Of a DNA stretch of 64,000 nt, positions 18,092 through 50,732 are shown piece after piece. How positions within the stretch are numbered: position 1 is the first letter of the stretch; each line of letters begins with the position of its first letter. The DNA is from Klebsiella terrigena (GTDB taxonomy: Bacteria > Pseudomonadota > Gammaproteobacteria > Enterobacterales > Enterobacteriaceae): the NCBI RefSeq assembly GCF_006539725.1, contig NZ_BJNO01000001.1, positions 186,001 to 250,000 of the forward strand, written 5' to 3'. The notes below the pieces were generated by a model. That model saw only the letters and a list, made by a program, of their open reading frames with translations. It was not told the DNA's origin and searched no databases. The translations under genes and the position numbers were made by a program.

Positions 18092-20727
<2,636 letters not shown>

Positions 20728-21360
20728 ATGCCTGAATTGAGTTCGTTAATAACATTCGCGTTCGTTGCCCTGGGGCTGGTGCTGACCCCCGGGCCGAATA
20801 TGATCTACCTGACCTCGCGCTCGATCTGCCAGGGCAAACGCGCCGGCCTGATTTCATTAGGCGGCGTGGCGCTGGGGTTCGTCTTTTATATGCTGTGCGC
20901 GGCGCTGGGGATTACCGCGCTGATTTTTGCGGTGCCCTATGCCTACGATATTTTGCGCATCAGCGGGGTCGTCTACTTACTCTACCTGGCCTGGCAGGCG
21001 ATAAAACCGGGCGGTCGTTCGCTCTTTGCCGTGCGCGACCTGCCGGCAGACAGCGGGCGTAAGCTCTTTCTGATGGGCTTTATTACCAATCTGGCGAATC
21101 CTAAAATCGCCATTATGTATCTGTCGCTCTTACCGCAGTTTATCTCCCCCGGCCACGGCAGCATTCTCAGCCAGTCTTTGGTGCTCGGCTTCACCCAGGC
21201 ATCGATCAGCGTGGCGGTCAACGCGCTGATTGTGCTGATGGCCGGCGAGGTGTCGCGGTTTCTTACCGGTCGCCCGCTCTGGCAGCGCTTTCAGCGCTGG
21301 CTGATGGCGACGGTGCTGGCAGGAATGGCGGTTAAAATCGCCTTTGAAGCGCGCAAATAA
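20728..21360 (+). CDS. LysE/RhtB-family exporter
   Basis: It is a 210-residue inner-membrane exporter with six hydrophobic helices. The RhtB signature is LTPGPNMIYLTSRSICQGKRAG (P-G-P near residue 22), followed by NLANPKIAIMYLSLLPQFI in the middle. It resembles homoserine/threonine or leucine exporters. The start ATG 20728 follows GGTGGAGATAAACT. It is the second LysE-type gene in the window; the first, at 9328-9948, is distant in sequence. It is followed by a hairpin and then the guanidine operon, so it is probably transcribed separately. Confidence 0.9.
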   Translation: MPELSSLITFAFVALGLVLTPGPNMIYLTSRSICQGKRAGLISLGGVALGFVFYMLCAALGITALIFAVPYAYDILRISGVVYLLYLAWQAIKPGGRSLFAVRDLPADSGRKLFLMGFITNLANPKIAIMYLSLLPQFISPGHGSILSQSLVLGFTQASISVAVNALIVLMAGEVSRFLTGRPLWQRFQRWLMATVLAGMAVKIAFEARK

Positions 21361-21504: not shown

Positions 21505-21550
21505 AGATAAAAACAGAAGGCAGCGCACCATACAATTTAGATGATCAAAT

Positions 21551-21643
21551 AGCTGGCTAGGGTTCCGGTTCACGCAGGTGAATGACTGGTCCGAGAGCTG
21601 GCGACCTCTGCGAGGTTACACGGCGGGACAAAAGCCCGGGAGA
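21551..21643 (+). ncRNA. Guanidine-I riboswitch (ykkC motif)
   Basis: The leader contains the conserved ykkC/guanidine-I blocks in order: CTAGGGTTCCG (about 21558), ACTGGTCCGAGAG (about 21585), ACACGGCGGGACAAAAG (about 21619) and CCCGGGAGA. The spacing and helices match the class. It senses free guanidinium and is followed by a terminator, so guanidine should switch on the downstream transporter and catabolic genes. This identifies the operon substrate as guanidine rather than urea. Confidence 0.95.
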
Positions 21644-21682
21644 CAGCAGCACCAGTAGGTGTCGCGCTGCTCCTGTTTTTTG
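21644..21682 (+). terminator. Riboswitch-controlled terminator hairpin
   Basis: CAGCAGCACC...GGTG...GCTGCTCCTG forms a long stem, followed by six T residues (21676-21681). It lies just after the guanidine-I aptamer and before the first gene, so it is the expected expression platform, disrupted when ligand is bound. Confidence 0.75.
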
Positions 21683-21701: not shown

Positions 21702-22760
21702 ATGAAGCGATCGCCACTACTCCGTTCTTTTGTCCTGTCCCTGGCGCTGCTGGCCAGTTTCCCTTCCTTTGCCGCGGTAAAAAAAGAGTTCAACATCTGC
21801 TGGACGATTTATGCCGGCTGGATGCCCTGGGGCACCATCAGCAACGAAAAAATCATCGATAAATGGGCCAGCAAGTACGGTATCAAGATCAATATCGTGC
21901 AGCTCAACGACTACATCGAATCGATTAACCAGTATACCGCCGGCCAGTTCGACGGCTGCACCATGACCAATATGGATGCCCTGACCATTCCTGCCGCCGG
22001 CGGGGTGGATACCACTGCGCTGATCACCGGCAGCTACTCTGACGGTAACGATGGCGTGGTACTGAAGGGCGCGGGCAAAAAGCTGAGCGACCTCAAGGGG
22101 ATGCAGGTTTACCTCCCGGAGCTCTCGGTTTCGCACTATCTGCTGGTTCGCGGACTGGAAAAGGCCGGACTGCAGGAGCGAGACGTCAAAGTGGTCAATA
22201 CCTCTGACGCCGATATTGTCTCGGCCTTCGGCACCAGCAGCGTGCGCGCCGCCGTGGCGTGGAACCCGCAGCTGTCGGTTATCAAAAAGACCCCACAAAC
22301 CAGCGAAGTCTTTAGCTCCTCCCAGGTGCCTGGAGAGCTTATCGACATGATGGTGGTCAACAGCCAAACCCTGAAGGACAACCCGGCGCTCGGCAAGGCG
22401 TTGACCGGCGCGTGGTTTGAGATGATGAGTAAAATGCAGGCCGGGGATAAGCCAGCGCTGAGCGCCATGGCGGCCGATTCCGGCACCGACCTCGCGGGCT
22501 ATGAGGCGCAGCTGAAAACCACCCATCTGTTCTGGACTCCCGACGAGACCCTCAAATTTATCTCCACCCCGGAGCTGGCCAAAACCATGCAGCGCGTGGC
22601 GCAGTTCTCCTTTGACAAAGGGCTGCTGGGCGAGGGCGCCCAGAGCGCTGACTTTATCGGCATGAGTTTCCCGGGCAACGTCACCGTCGGCGACGCGGGC
22701 AACGTCAAGCTGCGCTTCGACGATAGCTACCTGAAGATGGCCGCCGCGGGCCAGCTGTAA
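21702..22760 (+). CDS. ABC transporter substrate-binding protein (guanidine uptake)
   Basis: It is a periplasmic binding protein of 352 residues with a Sec signal peptide (about 1-23, ending SFA). It belongs to the nitrate/sulfonate/taurine-type class; FNICWTIYAGWMPWG begins the mature part. It would capture guanidine, or a related compound, for the adjacent permease and ATPase. The frame is open from 21582, but ATG 21702 has a ribosome site (AGAGG, 21691-21695) and starts the signal peptide; upstream sequence is the riboswitch. It is the first gene of the operon. The substrate is inferred from the riboswitch and pathway. Confidence 0.88.
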   Translation: MKRSPLLRSFVLSLALLASFPSFAAVKKEFNICWTIYAGWMPWGTISNEKIIDKWASKYGIKINIVQLNDYIESINQYTAGQFDGCTMTNMDALTIPAAGGVDTTALITGSYSDGNDGVVLKGAGKKLSDLKGMQVYLPELSVSHYLLVRGLEKAGLQERDVKVVNTSDADIVSAFGTSSVRAAVAWNPQLSVIKKTPQTSEVFSSSQVPGELIDMMVVNSQTLKDNPALGKALTGAWFEMMSKMQAGDKPALSAMAADSGTDLAGYEAQLKTTHLFWTPDETLKFISTPELAKTMQRVAQFSFDKGLLGEGAQSADFIGMSFPGNVTVGDAGNVKLRFDDSYLKMAAAGQL

Positions 22761-22784: not shown

Positions 22785-23600
22785 ATGCGACAAATTAACC
22801 GCCATCCACAGCAGGGCATGCGAATGATGTTGATGCTGATGCCCTTTGTGCTGCTGATCGCCGCCTGGGTTATCGGCTCTGCGCTGCGGCTGGAGGCCAA
22901 TCCGCAGGACAAGCTGCTGCCCGGACTGACGCAAATGGTCGCCGCCGTCGAGCGGATGGCGTTCACGCCGGACAAACGCAGCGGCGAATACCTGCTGTGG
23001 GCCGATACTCTTATCAGCCTGAGTCGCCTGCTGACCGGGCTGGCGCTCTCCTCGCTGATCGGGCTGAGCATCGGTATCGCCGCCGGGGTTTTCCCGCTCT
23101 ACCGCGCGGCGCTGTCGCCGCTGATGACCGTGATCTCGATGATCCCACCGCTGGCGATCCTGCCGGTGCTGTTTATCGTCTTTGGTCTCGATGAGCTCTC
23201 CAAGGTGATGCTGATTGTTATTGGGGTGACGCCCATGCTGGCGCGCGATCTCGAGCAGCGGGCGCGGGAAATTCCGGCGGAGCTGTTTATTAAAGCGCAG
23301 ACCCTCGGCGCCAACAGCTGGACGCTGGTGCTACGGGTAGTGCTGCCGCAGCTGCTGTCGCGCCTGATTATCTCCCTGCGTCTGCTGCTGGGTTCGGCGT
23401 GGCTGTTTCTGATATCGGCGGAGGCCATTTCCGCCACCGCCGGTCTCGGATACCGCATTTTCCTTGTTCGCCGCTATATGGCGATGGACGTCATTATTCC
23501 CTACGTCATCTGGATAACCCTGCTGGCCTGGCTGATGGATCTGGCCCTGCGGCAGCTGCATAAAGCCTGCTTCCCGTGGGCGGAAGGAGGCCGGACATGA
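22785..23600 (+). CDS. ABC transporter permease (guanidine uptake)
   Basis: It is a 271-residue inner-membrane permease of the BPD_transp_1 family. About six helices are visible; the EAA loop that docks the ATPase is near AQTLGANSWTLVLRVVLPQL (about 175-195). The chosen ATG 22785 follows GGGAGTCAACGCC; an upstream TTG in the same frame has no ribosome site. It ends in an ATGA overlap with the ATPase start, so the two are translationally coupled. The binding-protein gene ends 24 bases upstream. Confidence 0.88.
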   Translation: MRQINRHPQQGMRMMLMLMPFVLLIAAWVIGSALRLEANPQDKLLPGLTQMVAAVERMAFTPDKRSGEYLLWADTLISLSRLLTGLALSSLIGLSIGIAAGVFPLYRAALSPLMTVISMIPPLAILPVLFIVFGLDELSKVMLIVIGVTPMLARDLEQRAREIPAELFIKAQTLGANSWTLVLRVVLPQLLSRLIISLRLLLGSAWLFLISAEAISATAGLGYRIFLVRRYMAMDVIIPYVIWITLLAWLMDLALRQLHKACFPWAEGGRT

Positions 23601-24376
23601 GTTTTATTGCCATTAAAAATATCTGGCAGGAGTACGGCGACCACGTGGTGCTGGAGCGCATCAATCTCGAGGTCAGGGAGGGGGAGTTCTGTTCAATGGT
23701 CGGGGCCTCCGGCTGCGGGAAATCGACCTTTTTGCGCCTGCTGCTGGGCCAGGAGAAGCCGACCCGGGGCTCTATCACCCTTGACGGCCAGCCGCTGGCC
23801 GCCGAGCCGGACCGCAGCCGCGGCGTGGTGTTCCAGCGCTATTCGGTATTCCCGCATCTCAACGTGCTGGATAACGTGACCGTTGGCCTCGAGCTGCCGG
23901 CCTCGCCGCTGCTTGGCCGTCTTTTTGGCGCCCGCAGGCGGCTCGCCCGCGAACGGGCGGCGCAGATGCTGGAGAAAGTCGGCCTTTCCCACGCGCTCGA
24001 TAAGTACCCGGCGCAGCTCTCCGGCGGCATGCAGCAGCGGCTGGCTATCGCCCAGGCCTTTGTGATGCAGCCGCGTATTCTGCTGCTTGATGAGCCGTTT
24101 GGCGCCCTCGACCCGGGTATCCGCAAGGATATGCACGCGCTGCTTTTGCAGCTGTGGAGCGAAACGCGGATGACGGTCTTTATGGTCACCCACGATTTGG
24201 CCGAAGGCTTCAATCTCGGGACCCGGCTGCTGGTCTTTGACAAGGTGCGCCACGACCCGCAGGCGCCCAACGCCTACGGCGCGCGCGTGACCTACGACAT
24301 ACCGCTTAACGAAGCCCGCATGTCGCAGATGCTCGGCACCGGCAGCGATAACAACGTTTATGCATTAAGGAGATAG
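23597..24376 (+). CDS. ABC transporter ATP-binding protein (guanidine uptake)
   Basis: It is a 259-residue ATPase of the nitrate/sulfonate-type importer group. Walker A is GASGCGKST, the signature is LSGGMQQRLAIAQAF, Walker B is ILLLDEPFGALD and the switch His is in VTHDLAEG. The start ATG 23597 overlaps the permease stop (ATGA), with GGAGG seven bases upstream. It completes the importer encoded by the two preceding genes. Confidence 0.92.
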   Translation: MSFIAIKNIWQEYGDHVVLERINLEVREGEFCSMVGASGCGKSTFLRLLLGQEKPTRGSITLDGQPLAAEPDRSRGVVFQRYSVFPHLNVLDNVTVGLELPASPLLGRLFGARRRLARERAAQMLEKVGLSHALDKYPAQLSGGMQQRLAIAQAFVMQPRILLLDEPFGALDPGIRKDMHALLLQLWSETRMTVFMVTHDLAEGFNLGTRLLVFDKVRHDPQAPNAYGARVTYDIPLNEARMSQMLGTGSDNNVYALRR

Positions 24377-24380
24377 TCAG

Positions 24381-25109
24381 ATGAAGCCACTTTTTCACTC
24401 CGCACCGAGCCTGCGCGAAGAGTTTGTCCCGGGCGGCGGCCATACCTCGTTTATTCTGCGCCGCGGGCAAATCCTGCGCCTGACCGATATCGACGGCGAG
24501 GCTAACGTCAGCATGATGATGCTCAATCCGCATGAAAAGAGCGAACGCCTGAACCTGCCGGATACCCTGAAAGGGCAGCACACCGCGCGCCTGACCGCCG
24601 GGCACTGCTTCTACTCTGATATGGGCCGCGTGCTGGCGGGGATCGTCGCCGATAGCAGCGGCTGGCACGATCCCTTTGGCGGCGTGCTCAACGCCGAAGA
24701 GACCCTGGAAAAGTACGGCGCCGGCCGCTACCAGGAGCTGCGCAACGGCTACTACCGCAACGGCGTCGATAACCTGCTGGTTGAAATGGGCAAATGGGAT
24801 CTGGGCCTGGAGGATCTGCTGATGGTGGTCAACTTCTTCAGCAAGGTCACCGTCGCCGCCGACGGCAGCTTCCATTTCTGCGCCGCGCCGTCCAGCGCCG
24901 GGCGGTACGTTGAGCTGTTTGCGCCGATGGACGTGCTGATCGTCCTTACCGCGCTGCCGCATCCGCAGGACCCCGCTACGGAGTATGCCCCGCGTCCGGT
25001 CCAACTGAGCTGGTTCGACGCTGACGATGCCCAGGCGGCGGTCGCCTCGCTGCTCACCCGCGATGAAAACCAGCGCGCGTTTGCCAATACCCAACTTTTT
25101 GCCCTCTGA
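24381..25109 (+). CDS. DUF1989 protein, carboxyguanidine deiminase subunit (UAAP1)
   Basis: It is a 242-residue member of the urea-amidolyase-associated family 1 (DUF1989). Work on guanidine utilisation assigned the two DUF1989 partners as the heteromeric carboxyguanidine deiminase (CgdA/CgdB), which converts carboxyguanidine to allophanate and ammonia. Conserved blocks here are [19 protein letters not shown] (residues 25-43) and [13 protein letters not shown]. It begins four bases after the ATPase stop, with AAGGAG nearby. I do not assign which of A or B this is. Confidence 0.85.
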
Positions 25110-25119
25110 GGAGCCGACC

Positions 25120-25755
25120 ATGAGCCTTGTTACCAGTCCCCGCAACCCGGCTGATGCCGTTTATCGTCACGTGATCCCGGCGGGCGAACCCTGGCTGTTC
25201 GAAGTGAAGAAAGGGCAAACCCTGCGGCTGCTCGATCTTGAAGGCAACCAGGCTATCGACACCCTGTTTTATAACGCCGATAACCCGCGCGAACGCTACG
25301 ATCCGCAGCGCACGCTGCGTCGTCAGGGGAACGTCTATCTGACCGCCGGCAGCGTGCTGTTCTCGAATCTTGGCCGGCCGCTGCTGACCATCGTTGCCGA
25401 TACCTGTGGCCGCCACGACACTCTCGGCGGCGCCTGCGCTCAGGAGAGCAACACCGTGCGCTATGCCGCCGATAAGCGCTATATGCACAGCTGCCGGGAC
25501 AACTTCCTCTGCGCCTGCCTGCACGACGGCCGCCTGCACAAGCGTGATATCGGCGCCAACATCAACTTCTTTATGAACGTGCCGGTGACGGAAGAAGGCG
25601 GGCTGACCTTCGAAGACGGTATCTCCGCCGCCGGGAAATACGTCGAGTTGCGCGCGGAGTGTAACGCCATGGTGCTGATCTCCAACTGCCCGCAGCTCAA
25701 TAACCCGTGCAACGGCTGGAATCCAACCCCGGCGGAGGTGCTGGTATGGAACTGA
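25120..25755 (+). CDS. DUF1989 protein, carboxyguanidine deiminase subunit (UAAP2)
   Basis: It is a 211-residue second DUF1989 protein, homologous to the preceding one ([19 protein letters not shown] parallels its partner). It has a Cys-rich patch, [13 protein letters not shown] and [11 protein letters not shown], that could bind metal. With its neighbour it would form the carboxyguanidine deiminase. The open frame runs back to 25027, inside the previous gene. ATG 25120, preceded by GAGGAG, is the proper start. It overlaps a 32-codon ORF by 10 bases at its 3-prime end. Confidence 0.87.
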
Positions 25756-25844
25756 CCCGCTGGCAGCGCTGGCGGCTGATGGCCTATCGCCTGTTTGCCG
25801 TACGCGCCGATCGCCTGAACAGTACGCCGTCGCGCAAATCCTGA
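25746..25844 (+). CDS. Small basic ORF, 32 aa, between deiminase and carboxylase genes
   Basis: The frame starts at ATG 25746 inside the last codons of the deiminase gene and gives a 32-residue, Arg/Trp-rich peptide ([17 protein letters not shown]...). It has a net positive charge and amphipathic character. The overlap of 10 bases suggests translational coupling. It stops 11 bases before the guanidine-II element. It may be a real small protein, a leader peptide affecting folding of the riboswitch, or chance. It matches no family I recognise. Confidence 0.45.
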
Positions 25845-25854
25845 CGCCGACGCG

Positions 25855-25921
25855 CCCCGGGGACGACCCCGGGAAGAACGCTATTTTGCTGCGGGACGAC
25901 CCGCCCTGATGTGAGTCCCGC
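25855..25921 (+). ncRNA. Guanidine-II riboswitch (mini-ykkC) before the carboxylase
   Basis: Two hairpins share the diagnostic ACGA loop: CCCGGGG-ACGA-CCCCGGG (25856-25873, 7 bp) and GCGGG-ACGA-CCCGC (25891-25904, 5 bp), joined by 17 bases. This is the guanidine-II layout. GCGGGAC (25891-25897) can alternatively pair with GTCCCGC (25915-25921), covering the ribosome-binding region just before the ATG at 25924. Ligand-stabilised hairpin 2 would free it. It is internal to an operon already headed by guanidine-I. Confidence 0.85.
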
Positions 25922-25923
25922 TT

Positions 25924-28900
25924 ATGTTCAATACGCTACTTATTGCCAACCGCGGCGCCATCGCCTGCCGAATTCTGCGCACGCTGCGCGATATGCAGGT
26001 TAAAGGCGTCGCCGTCTATTCCGATGCCGATCTCAGCAGCCTGCATATTCGCGAAGCCGATGAAGCGCTTAGCCTTGGCGACGGCCCGGCGGCGCAAACC
26101 TATCTGGTGGTGGAGAAAATCATCGCCGCCGCGCGGCAAAGCGGCGCCGAGGCGATACACCCCGGCTACGGTTTCCTCTCGGAAAACGCCGCCTTCGCCG
26201 AAGCCTGCGAAGCCGCCGGACTGGTATTCGTCGGCCCGACGCCGCAGCAGCTGCGGACCTTTGGCCTTAAGCATACCGCCAGGGCGCTGGCTAAAGCGCA
26301 GGGCCTGCCGCTGCTGGAAGGAACCGAGCTGCTGGCCGATAGCGCCGAGGCGTGCCGCGCCGCGCAGGAGATTGGCTATCCGGTGATGCTCAAAAGCACC
26401 GCCGGCGGTGGCGGGATCGGCATGCGGGTGTGCCACGATGCCGACGAGCTGGCGGAGGCTTTTGAGACCGTCCGCCGCCTCGGGCAGAACAACTTTAGCG
26501 ATGCCGGCGTGTTCGTTGAAAAATATATCTCCCGCGCGCGCCACCTTGAGGTGCAGATCTTTGGCGACGGGCAGGGGGAAGTTATCGCCCTCGGCGTGCG
26601 CGACTGCTCGATTCAGCGACGTAACCAGAAGGTTATCGAGGAGACGCCGGCCCCCAACCTGCCCGCGGGCATGGCGCAGGCGCTGTGCGAGGCGGCCATC
26701 TCCCTGGGTAAAGCGGTCAGCTACCGCAGCGCCGGGACGGTGGAGTTTGTTTACGACAGCCTGGCGCAGCGCTTCTATTTTCTCGAGGTCAACACCCGCC
26801 TGCAGGTCGAGCACGGCGTGACCGAGCAGGTCTGGGGCGTCGATCTGGTGCGCTGGATGGTCGCCCTGGCGGCGGGGGATTTGCCGCCGCTGTCCCGGCT
26901 GATGGCGGATCTGCAGCCGCGCGGCCACGCGATTCAGGCGCGGATTTACGCCGAAGATCCCGGCCGCCAGTTCCAGCCCTCGCCGGGGCTTCTCAGCGAA
27001 GCGACCTTCCCGCCGGCGGATGGGGAAACCCTGCGAATTGACCGCTGGGTGGAGGCCGGCTGCGAGGTGCCGCCGTTCTTCGACCCGATGCTGGCAAAAA
27101 CGATCGCCTGGCAGCCCGACCGCGAGCGGGCTATCGCCCGTCTCAGCGAAGCGCTGGCGGCAACCCGGCTGTACGGCGTGGAAACCAATCGTCTCTACCT
27201 GCAGCAGATTCTGGCTTTCGCCCCCTTTACCGAGGGCGAACCCTGGACCCGCTGCCTCGAGCAGCTGAGCTATCGGGCGGCAACCGTCGAGGTGCTGAGT
27301 GCCGGGACCCAGACCAGCGTTCAGGACTATCCGGGGCGCCTCGGATACTGGGCGGTGGGGGTTCCGCCGTCGGGGCCGATGGACGATCGGGCGCTGCGCC
27401 TCGGCAACCGGCTGCTCGGCAATCCGCAGGGCGAGGCGGCGCTGGAAATCACTCTCAGCGGACCAACGTTGAAGTTTAACTGCCTCGCCGAGGCGGCGAT
27501 ATGCGGCGCAGCGGTGGCGGTAACCCTCGACGGCGTGGCCCAGCCGATGAACCGCGTCTTTACTATTCCCGCCGGCGCGACGCTGAAAATCGGCCCGGTC
27601 AGCGGCGCGGGGGTGCGCAGCTACCTCTGCCTGCGCGGCGGCATTCAGGTGCCGGACTATTTAGGCAGTAAAAGCACCTTTACCCTCGGACAGTTTGGCG
27701 GCCACGCCGGACGCGCGCTGCGCAGCGGCGACGTTCTGCACCTCGCGCCGACGCCCGGCGCAGAAGCCGGCGCCACGCTCCCGGCTGCGCTGCAGACCCA
27801 TCTGGACGCGGTGCGGACGCTGCGGGTGATCTACGGCCCCCACGGCGCGCCGGAATTCTTTGCCGCGGAGTATATCGCTACCTTTTTTGCCACCGACTGG
27901 GAGGTCCATTTCAACTCCAGCCGTACCGGCGTGCGGCTGATTGGCCCGAAACCGCTGTGGGCGCGCGACAGCGGCGGTGAGGCGGGGCTGCATCCGTCGA
28001 ATATTCACGATAATCCCTACGCAGTCGGGGCGGTCGATTTTACCGGCGATATGCCGGTGATCCTCGGTCCGGACGGCCCCAGCCTCGGCGGATTTGTCTG
28101 CCCGGTCACCGTGATTGAGGCCGACCTGTGGCAGCTCGGGCAGCTGAAAGCTGGCGATAAGGTCCGCTTTGCGGCGGTCGATTTAGCCACCGCCCGTCGT
28201 CTGGCGCAGGGCCGCCGCGAGGAGCTGGCGACCCTTGAACCGGCGGCTATCGGCTGGCAGCCGGCGCCGCTGGCGTCACCGGTAGTGATGAGCTGCGGGG
28301 AAGGCAGTAAACGCCTGGTGGCGCGGCTCTCCGGCGATACCCATCTGCTGCTGGAGGCCGGAGAGGCGGAGCTGGATCTGGTTCTGCGCTTTCGTATCCA
28401 CGCGCTGATGCAGACGCTGGAGGCGCAGGCCCGGACGGGGGTCATCGACCTGACGCCGGGGATCCGCTCTTTGCAGGTTCACTTCCAGCCGGAAACCCTG
28501 ACCCTGGAGGCGCTGCTGGCATGGGTACGCGCGGAATGGGCGACGGTGTGCGTTAGCGACGATCTCGAGGTTCCCACGCGCGTGGTGCACCTGCCGCTGT
28601 CGTGGGACGACCCGGCCTGCCGCAAGGCTATCGATAAATATATGACTACCGTTCGCCGCGACGCGCCCTGGTGCCCCAGCAATCTTGAGTTTATCCGGCG
28701 GATTAACGATCTGCCCGACGAACGCGCGGTCTGGGATACGGTGTTTGACGCCAGCTACCTGGTGATGGGGCTGGGGGATGTCTATCTCGGCGCGCCGGTG
28801 GCCACCCCCCTCGACCCGCGCCACCGGCTGGTGACCACCAAATACAACCCGGCGCGCACCTGGACGGCGGAAAACTCGGTCGGGATTGGCGGTGCCTACC

Positions 28901-29529
28901 TGTGCGTGTATGGCATGGAAGGCCCCGGCGGCTACCAGTTCGTCGGCCGCACGCTGCAGATGTGGAATCGCTATCACGAGGTGGCCGATTTTGCCGGCAA
29001 GCCGTGGCTGCTGCGCTTCTTCGACCAGCTGCGCTTCTATCCGGTCTCCGCCGAAGAGCTGCTGCAGATCCGTCGTGATTTTCCGCTCGGCCGCTATCCG
29101 CTGCGCATTGAGCACAGCACCCTGCGGCTGGCGGAGTATCAGCAGTTCCTTGAGCGCGAGGCCACGAGCATTGACGCCTTCCGCCAGCACCAGCAGCGCG
29201 CGTTTAACGAGGAGCGCGAGCGCTGGATAGCCAGCGGTCAGGCGCATTTCGAGAGCCAGGAGGCGGCGGTTGAAGAGGGCGCAGACGCGCCGCTGCAGAG
29301 CGGGCAGCAGGGAGTAGAAAGCCCCGTTTCCGGCAACCTGTGGCAGGTGCAAACCGCGCCGGGCAGCCGGGTTCGCGCCGGAGACGTTCTGCTGGTGCTG
29401 GAGTCGATGAAAATGGAGATCCCGCTGCTGGCCCCCTGCGATGGGGTGATTGCCGAGGTGAACGTCCAGCCGGGGGCCTCGGTTCGCGCCGGGCAACGGG
29501 TGGCGGTAATAATGGAGGAAAACGTATGA
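25924..29529 (+). CDS. Biotin-dependent guanidine (urea-type) carboxylase
   Basis: It is a 1201-residue, single-chain carboxylase that uses ATP and bicarbonate to carboxylate guanidine to carboxyguanidine. Domain order is biotin carboxylase (1-450, ATP-grasp KSTAGGGGIGMR), then two carboxyltransferase parts. The first resembles allophanate-hydrolase subunit 2/KipA (from VEVLSAG at about 455 to about 780). The second resembles subunit 1/KipI (PTRVVHLPLSWDD, about 880-1080). A C-terminal biotin carrier domain has the biotinylated Lys1163 in ESMKMEIP. The annotation is usually urea carboxylase; guanidine is inferred from both riboswitches and the DUF1989 partners. It starts at ATG 25924 and overlaps the next gene by ATGA. 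Confidence 0.92.
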   Translation: MFNTLLIANRGAIACRILRTLRDMQVKGVAVYSDADLSSLHIREADEALSLGDGPAAQTYLVVEKIIAAARQSGAEAIHPGYGFLSENAAFAEACEAAGLVFVGPTPQQLRTFGLKHTARALAKAQGLPLLEGTELLADSAEACRAAQEIGYPVMLKSTAGGGGIGMRVCHDADELAEAFETVRRLGQNNFSDAGVFVEKYISRARHLEVQIFGDGQGEVIALGVRDCSIQRRNQKVIEETPAPNLPAGMAQALCEAAISLGKAVSYRSAGTVEFVYDSLAQRFYFLEVNTRLQVEHGVTEQVWGVDLVRWMVALAAGDLPPLSRLMADLQPRGHAIQARIYAEDPGRQFQPSPGLLSEATFPPADGETLRIDRWVEAGCEVPPFFDPMLAKTIAWQPDRERAIARLSEALAATRLYGVETNRLYLQQILAFAPFTEGEPWTRCLEQLSYRAATVEVLSAGTQTSVQDYPGRLGYWAVGVPPSGPMDDRALRLGNRLLGNPQGEAALEITLSGPTLKFNCLAEAAICGAAVAVTLDGVAQPMNRVFTIPAGATLKIGPVSGAGVRSYLCLRGGIQVPDYLGSKSTFTLGQFGGHAGRALRSGDVLHLAPTPGAEAGATLPAALQTHLDAVRTLRVIYGPHGAPEFFAAEYIATFFATDWEVHFNSSRTGVRLIGPKPLWARDSGGEAGLHPSNIHDNPYAVGAVDFTGDMPVILGPDGPSLGGFVCPVTVIEADLWQLGQLKAGDKVRFAAVDLATARRLAQGRREELATLEPAAIGWQPAPLASPVVMSCGEGSKRLVARLSGDTHLLLEAGEAELDLVLRFRIHALMQTLEAQARTGVIDLTPGIRSLQVHFQPETLTLEALLAWVRAEWATVCVSDDLEVPTRVVHLPLSWDDPACRKAIDKYMTTVRRDAPWCPSNLEFIRRINDLPDERAVWDTVFDASYLVMGLGDVYLGAPVATPLDPRHRLVTTKYNPARTWTAENSVGIGGAYLCVYGMEGPGGYQFVGRTLQMWNRYHEVADFAGKPWLLRFFDQLRFYPVSAEELLQIRRDFPLGRYPLRIEHSTLRLAEYQQFLEREATSIDAFRQHQQRAFNEERERWIASGQAHFESQEAAVEEGADAPLQSGQQGVESPVSGNLWQVQTAPGSRVRAGDVLLVLESMKMEIPLLAPCDGVIAEVNVQPGASVRAGQRVAVIMEENV

Positions 29530-31322
29530 ATCAGCACAGTTTTGACCTACGCCTGAGTACCCTGGCGACGGGCTATCGCGACGGTCGTCTGACGCCCCGG
29601 GCGCTGATGGCGGAGCTGCGTCAGCGGGCCAGCGCGCTGAATCCAGAGTATCAGCTGTTTATTCATATTCTGACGGCAGAGGAGCAGGAGCCCTGGCTGG
29701 CGGCGCTGGACGGCGTCTCGCCGGAGACCCTGCCGCTGTACGGCGTGCCGTTTGCCATTAAGGATAATATCGATCTTGCCGGGATCGTCACCACCGCAGG
29801 ATGTCCGGCGTTCGCCTATACCGCCGAGCGGGACGCGACGATTGTGGCTCAGCTGATTGCGCTGGGCGCGGTTCCGGTCGGTAAAACCAACCTTGACCAG
29901 TTTGCCACCGGCCTCAACGGCACGCGCTCGCCGTACGGGCGCTGCCGCAACGCCGTGCACCCTGCGTATCCGTCGGGCGGTTCAAGCGCCGGTTCGGCGC
30001 TGGCGGTGGCGCTCGGCGTCGCCAGCTTTGCGCTCGGTACGGACACCGCCGGCAGCGGGCGAGTTCCGGCATCGCTAAACAACCTGGTCGGGCTGAAGGC
30101 CAGCAAAGGGCTGATCTCTACCGCCGGCGTGGTGCCGGCCTGCCGGACGCTCGACTGCACGACCTTTTTCACCGCCACCGCCGCCGAATCGAGCCGGCTG
30201 CTGGCGCTGACCGCCGCCGTCGATCCGCGGGATGCCTACAGCCGGCGTAATCCGCAGTGGAACGCGGCGCAGGCCTTCGGGGTCCCCGCGCCGGGCTTTC
30301 GCTTCGGCGTTCCGCAGACGCTCAACTTCCTCGGCTGCGCGCAGAGTGAAGCGCTGTTTTTACAGGCCAAAGCGCGGCTGCTGGCCCTTGGCGGTGTGGC
30401 GGTGAGCATCGATATGGCGCCGTTTCTCGCCGCTGCCAGCCTGCTGTATGACGGGCCGTGGGTGGCGGAGCGCTACGCGGTGGCGGGGCCGCTGATTGAA
30501 CGGGAACCGCAGGCGGTCCTGCCGGTGATCCGCGACGTGCTGGCGAAGGCGCCGCAAACCGACGCCGTCGCCGCCTTTCAGGCGATGTATCAGCTGCAGG
30601 CCTATAAGGCGCAGTGTGATGCCCTGCTCGACGGCGTGGAGTGCGTCCTGACGCCGACCTATCCGCGGCCGGTCACCCTGGCGGAGCTGGAAGCCGAGCC
30701 GGTGAAGCGCAACGCCGATCTGGGCTATTACACCAACTTTATGAATTTGCTGGACTATGCGGCCGTCAGCGTGCCGACGGGCTTTTTGGCGAACGGTCTG
30801 CCTTCCGGCGTGACGCTCTTTGGCCGGGCCTTCACCGACCAGTACCTGCTCGGGCTGGCCGATGCCTTCCAGCGGGCGCAGCCGCTGCCGCTGCCTGGCG
30901 GGGCGCTGATAGCCCCCGAGCCGCCGGCGGCTAGCGCCTGCCACGATCGCCAGGCGCTGGTGGTCTGCGGCGCCCATCTCGACGGGCTGGCGCTAAACGG
31001 ACAGCTGCGGGAGCGGGGCGGACGCCTGCTGGCGGCGACGGAAAGCGCGGCCTGCTATCGGCTCTACGCGCTGGCCGACGGCAGGCGCCCGGGAATGGTG
31101 CGGGACGAGAGCGGCGGGGCGGCCATTGCGGTGGAGGTGTGGGAGCTGCCCTCCGCCGAGCTGGGATCGCTCCTGGCGGCGATCCCGGCTCCGCTAGGAT
31201 TGGGTAAAGTGGAGCTGGCGGACGGGCGCTGGCTCAGCGGCTTTATCTGCGAGGGGTACGGCCTGCAGGGGGCGACCGATATTACGGCCTACGGCGGATG
31301 GCGGGCCTGGCTGGCGCGCTAG
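29526..31322 (+). CDS. atzF: Allophanate hydrolase
   Basis: It hydrolyses allophanate to two ammonia and two CO2, the last step of the pathway. The 598-residue product has an N-terminal amidase-signature domain with the Ser-cisSer-Lys triad: Lys79 (PFAIKDNID), cis-Ser in GGSSAGSA (153-154) and nucleophile Ser177 (DTAGSGRVPAS). A C-terminal AtzF-type domain follows from about residue 475. The open frame extends upstream to 29340, inside the carboxylase. ATG 29526 overlapping its stop (ATGA) is the natural start. It is the last gene of the operon. Confidence 0.93.
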   Translation: MNQHSFDLRLSTLATGYRDGRLTPRALMAELRQRASALNPEYQLFIHILTAEEQEPWLAALDGVSPETLPLYGVPFAIKDNIDLAGIVTTAGCPAFAYTAERDATIVAQLIALGAVPVGKTNLDQFATGLNGTRSPYGRCRNAVHPAYPSGGSSAGSALAVALGVASFALGTDTAGSGRVPASLNNLVGLKASKGLISTAGVVPACRTLDCTTFFTATAAESSRLLALTAAVDPRDAYSRRNPQWNAAQAFGVPAPGFRFGVPQTLNFLGCAQSEALFLQAKARLLALGGVAVSIDMAPFLAAASLLYDGPWVAERYAVAGPLIEREPQAVLPVIRDVLAKAPQTDAVAAFQAMYQLQAYKAQCDALLDGVECVLTPTYPRPVTLAELEAEPVKRNADLGYYTNFMNLLDYAAVSVPTGFLANGLPSGVTLFGRAFTDQYLLGLADAFQRAQPLPLPGGALIAPEPPAASACHDRQALVVCGAHLDGLALNGQLRERGGRLLAATESAACYRLYALADGRRPGMVRDESGGAAIAVEVWELPSAELGSLLAAIPAPLGLGKVELADGRWLSGFICEGYGLQGATDITAYGGWRAWLAR

Positions 31323-50263: not shown

Positions 50264-50339
50264 AGGACCTCCTGAATAAGGGGAGATCCGGGCGTGCAGA
50301 AGTATGAACAGGCAATGGCGGAAAACTGGCAAAATTGCC

Positions 50340-50425
50340 GACCCGTCCCTTCGCTGGCATGACCCAGATCAGGTTCAAAGGGTTCGGCTTACGCCATCTC
50401 AGCCCTCACGGGACACCCCTCGGTA
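50340..50425 (-). ncRNA. TPP riboswitch (THI box)
   Basis: The reverse strand contains the THI-box blocks in order: GGGGTGTC, GCTGAGATGG, ACCCTTTGAACCTGATCTGGG and the closing AGCGAAGGGA helix. It senses thiamine pyrophosphate and would shut off tenA-thiZXY when thiamine is sufficient. No clear terminator follows, so initiation control at the tenA ribosome site is likely. Confidence 0.95.
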
Positions 50426-50732
50426 GGGCCATGTTATACGACATTCACTTTTTGATTACAATCCCGGCCGCGGCTCATTGCTTCGGGGGCGCTGGGGCGG
50501 TTTAAGTGACGGTGTCACGAGAAGTCTGGCTAAAAAGCGAACGGCGTGCAGAATTCGGAAAAGTGTTATAGGTAATTAGTGTGATTTAGCACGCTTTTTT
50601 ATCCAAAATTAAGGAAAAAATCGGCCGTCGGCAATTGGTACTTCCGCGGCGCGTACTATATATTTTCATAAGCTGAAAGCCATTATTCTTCAGTGACCTG
50701 GGTATTAAAACCCCTTATCGCCTGGAGAGTGC
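50426..50732. other. 307-bp divergent region between thi operon and envelope genes
   Basis: It has the promoter of the thi operon next to the riboswitch and an AT-rich stretch (50570-50700) upstream of the first envelope gene. The GTGACGGTGTCAC palindrome lies at 50506-50518. No open frame with a ribosome site is seen. Confidence 0.5.
50506..50518. promoter_or_regulatory. GTGACGGTGTCAC palindrome
   Basis: It is a near-perfect dyad 215 bases before the envelope gene cluster, one of three GTGAC-N3-GTCAC palindromes in the window (also 31323, 42346). The factor is unknown. Confidence 0.35.

Follow-up and report, generated by a model that had tools for sequence, protein, structure and literature searches.

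We suggest that the window, i.e. the whole stretch of 64,000 nucleotides analysed here, contains an operon for guanidine assimilation of the standard kind, bearing two guanidine riboswitches and a conserved small open reading frame (ORF) between cgdB and the second switch. To this joint explanation we assign a probability of about 0.88. Judged by its gene content, the operon is that of the guanidine carboxylase pathway, see Table 1. The importer, cgdA, cgdB, gca and allophanate hydrolase genes all run in the same direction, the Guanidine-I riboswitch comes first, the Guanidine-II riboswitch precedes gca, and gca overlaps the hydrolase gene. All these genes are assumed to lie on one predicted transcript. 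The small ORF matters more than the nested riboswitch, as it would fill a gap in a pathway that was characterised recently. The nested riboswitch is one more case of a published layout, which corrects an impression of newness.

In the proposed mechanism, guanidine acts twice. When it is present, the Guanidine-I aptamer and its terminator would let transcription of the whole operon proceed, and the Guanidine-II aptamer between cgdB and gca would increase translation of the carboxylase. Here the ligand, the transcriptional mode of the first switch and the translational mode of the second are assigned from the riboswitch class and the literature. Translation of the small ORF would be coupled to that of cgdB, and its product would probably be a small protein serving the guanidine pathway.

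Table 1. Elements and genes of the guanidine operon, with positions in the window.
Feature	Position	Strand	Basis
Guanidine-I riboswitch aptamer RF00442, operon head	21546..21644	+	Rfam, 91 bits vs gathering score 63
Intrinsic-terminator-like hairpin and U run, first bases common to the aptamer 3' end (limits by eye)	21638..21681	+	Sequence; minimum-energy fold
ABC importer substrate-binding protein, 'putative urea ABC transporter substrate-binding protein'	21702..22760	+	TIGR03427, 538 bits vs cut-off 334
ABC permease	22785..23600	+	PF00528
ABC ATPase	23597..24376	+	PF00005
cgdA-like gene (DUF1989, UAAP1)	24381..25109	+	PF09347; TIGR03425 above its cut-off
cgdB-like gene (DUF1989, UAAP2)	25120..25755	+	PF09347; TIGR03424 above its cut-off
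GGAGG, Shine-Dalgarno-like, inside cgdB, 7 nt 5' of the small-ORF start codon	25734..25738	+	Sequence
Conserved small ORF, 32 codons, running across the cgdB stop; 10 nt separate it from the Guanidine-II aptamer	25746..25844	+	Homologues, purifying selection, start-codon association
Guanidine-II (mini-ykkC) riboswitch aptamer RF01068	25855..25904	+	Rfam, 46.9 bits vs gathering score 32, E 3.6e-06 for the 64-kb window
P1 hairpin, 7 bp, loop ACGA, 25856-25862 with 25867-25873	25856..25873	+	Sequence; covariation
P2 hairpin, 5 bp, loop ACGA, 25891-25895 with 25900-25904	25891..25904	+	Sequence; pair counts
GTCCCGC, complementary to 25891-25897, possible expression platform of the window's lineage	25915..25921	+	Sequence, folding; no enrichment in 69 loci
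Guanidine (urea) carboxylase gene gca, start ATG 25924	25924..29529	+	TIGR02712, 1832 bits vs cut-off 1304
Allophanate hydrolase gene	29526..31322	+	NF006043 and TIGR02713, both above cut-offs

Both riboswitches, first recognised in a sequence-only reading of this DNA, are recovered by the Rfam covariance models for Guanidine-I and Guanidine-II, each above its gathering score. At the head of the operon the Guanidine-I aptamer (91 bits with RF00442) is indeed followed by a terminator-like hairpin. This hairpin lies just 3' of the aptamer, is G+C-rich, runs into GUUUUUU and can be read in the sequence as well as in the fold; it is absent from the list of a simple terminator scan. The second element belongs to the guanidine-II class and sits where that reading had placed it, with RF01068 matching at 25855-25904 and the ATG of the carboxylase (25924) downstream. 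Its two ACGA-loop hairpins, with stems of 7 and 5 bp and a P1-P2 linker of 17 nt, are present as described. Both hairpins are closed by G-C pairs and carry a loop of the ACGR type, ACGA in each case.

The covariation expected for the two stems is found in P1. The 71 loci compared, the window being one of them, give 54 distinct P1 sequences. In all 54 the third pair from the loop is paired, and it occurs in six types (C-G, G-C, U-A, A-U, G-U or U-G). Pairing is found in 54 sequences at pairs 1 to 3 and in 50, 49, 45, 46 and 29 at pairs 4 to 8. P2 is almost invariant, with 11 distinct sequences of 14 nt over the 71 loci, and is uninformative in this respect. Both loops are ACGA or ACGG in 69 of the 71 loci, and in the other two one loop reads ACGC. 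The window's genome contains a second RF01068 copy on another contig, 12 nt before a gene (L002) that we take, from its sequence, to be SugE/Gdx-like. Guanidine-II elements before gdx/sugE are of the same aptamer class as the element studied here, which is instead internal to an operon.

The distribution of the two classes was surveyed in the best 80 loci with a carboxylase relative among the matches listed, whose genomes were searched with RF01068 and RF00442. In these 80, RF01068 lies at most 400 nt upstream of gca in 70 loci (over the gathering score in 68; slightly below it in L105 and L137), RF00442 precedes gca on the same strand in 67, and both classes are present in 63. Matches were placed by coordinate within each locus and contig numbers were not compared, so that a few of these may be coincidences. 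Some of the loci missing a riboswitch are contig ends, e.g. L120, which begins inside gca. The co-occurrence in related genomes, proposed earlier as a check, is thus borne out, and with 63 of the 80 listed carboxylase loci sharing it the layout can be regarded as a general feature of the guanidine carboxylase pathway. The loops and the P1 pairing are preserved over wide divergence, and the element at the same position in Vreelandella boliviensis binds guanidine according to the available part of PMC12508155. This makes it scarcely credible that the internal element, instead of being a working sensor, is a vestige or a site of mRNA processing, even though the Guanidine-I switch alone could suffice and Guanidine-II is not found upstream of gca in 10 of the 80 loci listed, contig ends among them.

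In 11 of the 80 loci listed, the operon strand carries two Guanidine-I matches before gca, separated by about 1.4-1.5 kb. These loci (L070, L071, L077, L079, L080, L082, L089, L092, L093, L108 and L129) are all Pseudomonas or gammaproteobacterial records.

The presence of a second guanidine sensor inside the operon is real, but the arrangement has already been published, and the suggestion that two such sensors on one operon were undescribed does not hold. The layout is documented for enterobacteria (PMC12186494) and for V. boliviensis (PMC12508155), as far as the available parts of both papers go. The former, a review, gives it for Raoultella terrigena, Klebsiella michiganensis and Erwinia rhapontici. 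As in the window, Guanidine-I goes with the importer and deiminase genes and Guanidine-II stands directly before the carboxylase and allophanate hydrolase genes. No difference from the window was found in the available review passages (PMC12186494), which do not mention the small ORF.

The V. boliviensis gca/mgdH operon likewise has Guanidine-I at its head and Guanidine-II between cgdB and gca. However, mgdH and mgdL separate its gca from the hydrolase gene, while gca and the hydrolase gene overlap in the window (PMC12508155, available part). In the same part of that 2025 study, in-line probing gave an apparent KD of 44 uM guanidine for Guanidine-I, with methylguanidine unbound in the tested range, and apparent KDs of 93 uM guanidine and 83 uM methylguanidine for Guanidine-II. 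Its authors presume transcriptional control by the first switch and translational control by the second, and name the combination for further study (PMC12508155). The available passages of a 2022 review of tandem riboswitches state that tandems were not seen for any guanidine class, a wording that may concern adjacent aptamers (PMC9481103). Like the tandems treated there, the two riboswitches of the window share one ligand and one predicted transcript, but they are about 4.2 kb apart and have different first genes.

It had further been proposed that a mutually exclusive pairing within the Guanidine-II region provides the translation switch. GCGGGAC (25891-25897) and GTCCCGC (25915-25921) are fully complementary over 7 pairs, and the near relatives L062 and L126 also attain 7 pairs if G-U is counted. 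Without ligand, the energy model gives the alternative helix a probability of 0.69 and P2 one of 0.31, and the forced P2 and alternative-helix states lie within 0.5 or about 1.3 kcal/mol of each other, depending on the stretch folded. The 7-bp helix thus exists and is nearly isoenergetic with P2, which leaves its use as the switch. In such a switch the helix would, without guanidine, shut the leader beside the start codon, and with guanidine P1 and P2 would dock and free the leader. We hold this tentatively and rather doubt it, because pairing of 6 bp or more between the 5' arm of P2 and the leader is no commoner than chance (6 of 69 loci, where shuffled leaders would give 7.4), and because the modelled start region of the window is less often unpaired with P2 formed (0.27) than in the alternative helix (0.42). 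The latter can be ascribed to GUGAGU, which can pair with GCUUAU over the start codon. Over the 69 loci, the modelled openness of the start region with P2 increases by more than 0.1 in 15 and decreases in 4, and the window shows no opening. Pairing at chance level in the 69 loci leads us to reject the helix as a general mechanism; in the window's own lineage it is possible. As folding gives no clear P2-dependent opening of the start in the window, the translational mode is taken from the literature and from the position of the element.

The small ORF begins with an ATG located 7 nt before the cgdB stop codon, so that its first 10 nt overlap cgdB. Among the 80 loci listed and the window, 78 show the end of cgdB upstream of gca (L118, L120 and L128 were dropped). 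These were searched with a profile of 23 peptides, from which the first four alignment columns were omitted, run on the ORF frame without demanding a start codon. A homologue is found at the same place in 37 of the 78 loci, window included (E <=4.9e-07), and the remaining 41 have E-values of 0.43 or more, a clean split; the other two frames give at most 3.4 bits. The 37 positives include 14 that are outside the profile, one being identical to the window's peptide and most others close kin of profile rows. By record title, the positives come from Enterobacteriaceae, Pectobacteriaceae, Pseudomonadaceae and Burkholderiaceae. The Serratia plasmid NZ_MT039215.1 (L153) carries the ORF as well. In this record, the one annotated record found with the ORF, it is without an entry in the PLSDB gene table, which is incomplete by its own account.

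On the same conjugative plasmid, the guanidine operon is closely followed by nifH, nifD and nifK. Between the carboxylase and nifH, that incomplete table lists no allophanate hydrolase.

A survey of the window's family gave a strong match (E <=1.5e-8) in 17 of 295 genomes, each starting in the end of cgdB. By pattern, Guanidine-II and gca follow 3' of the ORF in 16 of them, and the 17th, G096, adjoins an Rfam match to Guanidine-II. Since these 17 include the window's genome and at least four that agree in every base with L065, L066, L067 and L069 over the 200 nt surrounding the ORF, no more than 12 are new. A further, 18th match, G133 (E 0.001), lies outside any cgdB end. As for stand-alone copies, only the window's own genome matched strongly among 369 genomes of the class; weak matches in 10 others (best E 5.4e-4) are presumably due to chance. 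The small ORF has no match in Pfam at E up to 10, none in PDB, and no credible one in NCBIfam, where the single match is far below its cut-off (13 bits vs 97). Among the listed papers and abstract openings covered by the literature search no description was found, nor in the available part of PMC12508155; the original papers on the enterobacterial operon might show it.

The amino-acid sequence of the small ORF is under purifying selection. The test took 10 disjoint pairs without gaps, left out the first 12 nt and placed the same base changes at random in 5000 simulations. The observed changes alter 67 amino acids, against 99.6 +/- 4.8 in the simulations, none of which was as low. Differences by codon position number 43, 33 and 83, i.e. 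83 of 159 fall at the third position. No stop arises in the ORF, compared with 4.7 on average in the simulations. Over 28 close, non-independent pairs pN/pS is 0.40; single pairs show little constraint, with 0.98 for L115-L130 at the top of the range.

A second line of evidence comes from the codons at the end of cgdB that create the start codon of the small ORF. In 68 loci, taken from the best 80 listed and the window, cgdB ends in Val/Ile-Trp-X-stop, and a GTA or ATA codon for this Val/Ile, which creates the ATG, is present in 34 of the 37 loci that bear the ORF and in 5 of the 31 that lack it (Fisher 1e-10, kinship ignored). In ORF-bearing loci, Ile at this site is always encoded by ATA (12/12), a codon used for 1 of 207 Ile in the preceding 150 codons, and Val is GTA in 22 of 25 cases against 17 of 356 in the same stretch. 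A kinship-aware version retains 6 independent pairs, of which on average 4.4 go in the expected direction and none in the opposite one (median p 0.125).

It can be asked whether the ORF is a gene at all, since its first 10 nt overlap cgdB, it is missing in 41 of the 78 loci and the kinship-aware start-codon test is weak. We consider it highly improbable that the apparent conservation comes from the end of cgdB and common descent. The selection test retains its result of 0 in 5000 simulations with the first 12 nt left out, the motif is common to four bacterial families, and uncommon GTA and ATA codons create the ATG. A frameshift producing CgdB with a tail was also considered and rejected; it would not need an ATG, yet the ATG is preserved in 34 of 37 loci.

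The encoded peptides have 28-52 residues and are basic, with a net charge of +1 to +7. In the AlphaFold prediction residues 4-25 form a helix (mean pLDDT 73, pTM 0.34), which says little about function. An amphipathic helix was tried as a candidate and rejected, the helical moment not being above that of shuffles (mean z -0.18). With regard to features of a leader-peptide attenuator, the core residues are conserved, and the window's small ORF, read by eye, contains no run of one kind of codon.

The gap from stop to aptamer is 4-12 nt in 19 of 37 loci and 17-80 nt in 15, and in 3 of 37 the ORF overlaps the aptamer; this spacing is frequent, not obligatory. A gap of 4-12 nt corresponds to about one ribosome edge, as given by the ribosome footprint. 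In addition, the start of the ORF and the cgdB stop overlap, and in the window a GGAGG precedes this start by 7 nt. These features would fit an inert peptide whose ORF matters only through being translated, bringing ribosomes from cgdB to the aptamer, which would protect about 90 nt of mRNA against Rho or RNase E or set the time at which P1 folds. We find this unlikely, as the amino-acid sequence is conserved, which shielding would not need, and as the longer gaps and the overlaps do not agree with it.

The conserved amino acids favour a functional protein over a mere ribosome bridge. We put a working small pathway protein first, and a bridge or folding aid second; our best guess, from the sequences, is that the ORF encodes a small protein of the guanidine operon. 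In its full form, which we consider rather probable, the proposal is that the small ORF is an unrecognised gene whose protein product, basic, probably helical and 28-52 residues long, is devoted to guanidine assimilation in beta- and gammaproteobacteria. The start codon of this gene would be kept by uncommon codons at the end of cgdB and its stop often placed one ribosome edge before Guanidine-II, and it would be both a pathway component and a translational bridge between the riboswitch-controlled halves of the operon. A short ORF beside a riboswitch is also known from Mycobacterium tuberculosis, where an upstream ORF accompanies a B12 riboswitch (PMC11260477, available part). However, the ligand is another one there, and the window has a conserved peptide overlapping the preceding gene.

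In L091, L113 and L124 the small ORF begins with GTG and reaches into the Guanidine-II aptamer by 31 nt.

Of the 78 loci, 41 lack the small ORF or have it in decayed form, among them the close relatives L126 and L064; it is thus not essential to the guanidine pathway. On two quickly built carboxylase trees, between which the badly placed row L116 was removed, the ORF switches between presence and absence 12-13 times, and gain and loss are indistinguishable. Remnants such as that in L092 suggest losses. All 37 ORF-bearing loci have Guanidine-II, against 33 of the 41 others, in loci from the best 80 listed, a difference that kinship may explain.

Two other riboswitches are found in the window. 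A ZMP/ZTP riboswitch at 20628-20708 on the plus strand (53 bits vs cut-off 39) lies directly 5' of a LysE/RhtB-type exporter gene at 20728-21360; nothing pertinent to this pairing was found among the papers listed by a literature search. A TPP riboswitch at 50329-50430 on the minus strand looks ordinary. It heads a run of minus-strand genes from 50332 down to 47143, which we presume to be tenA followed by ABC transporter genes.
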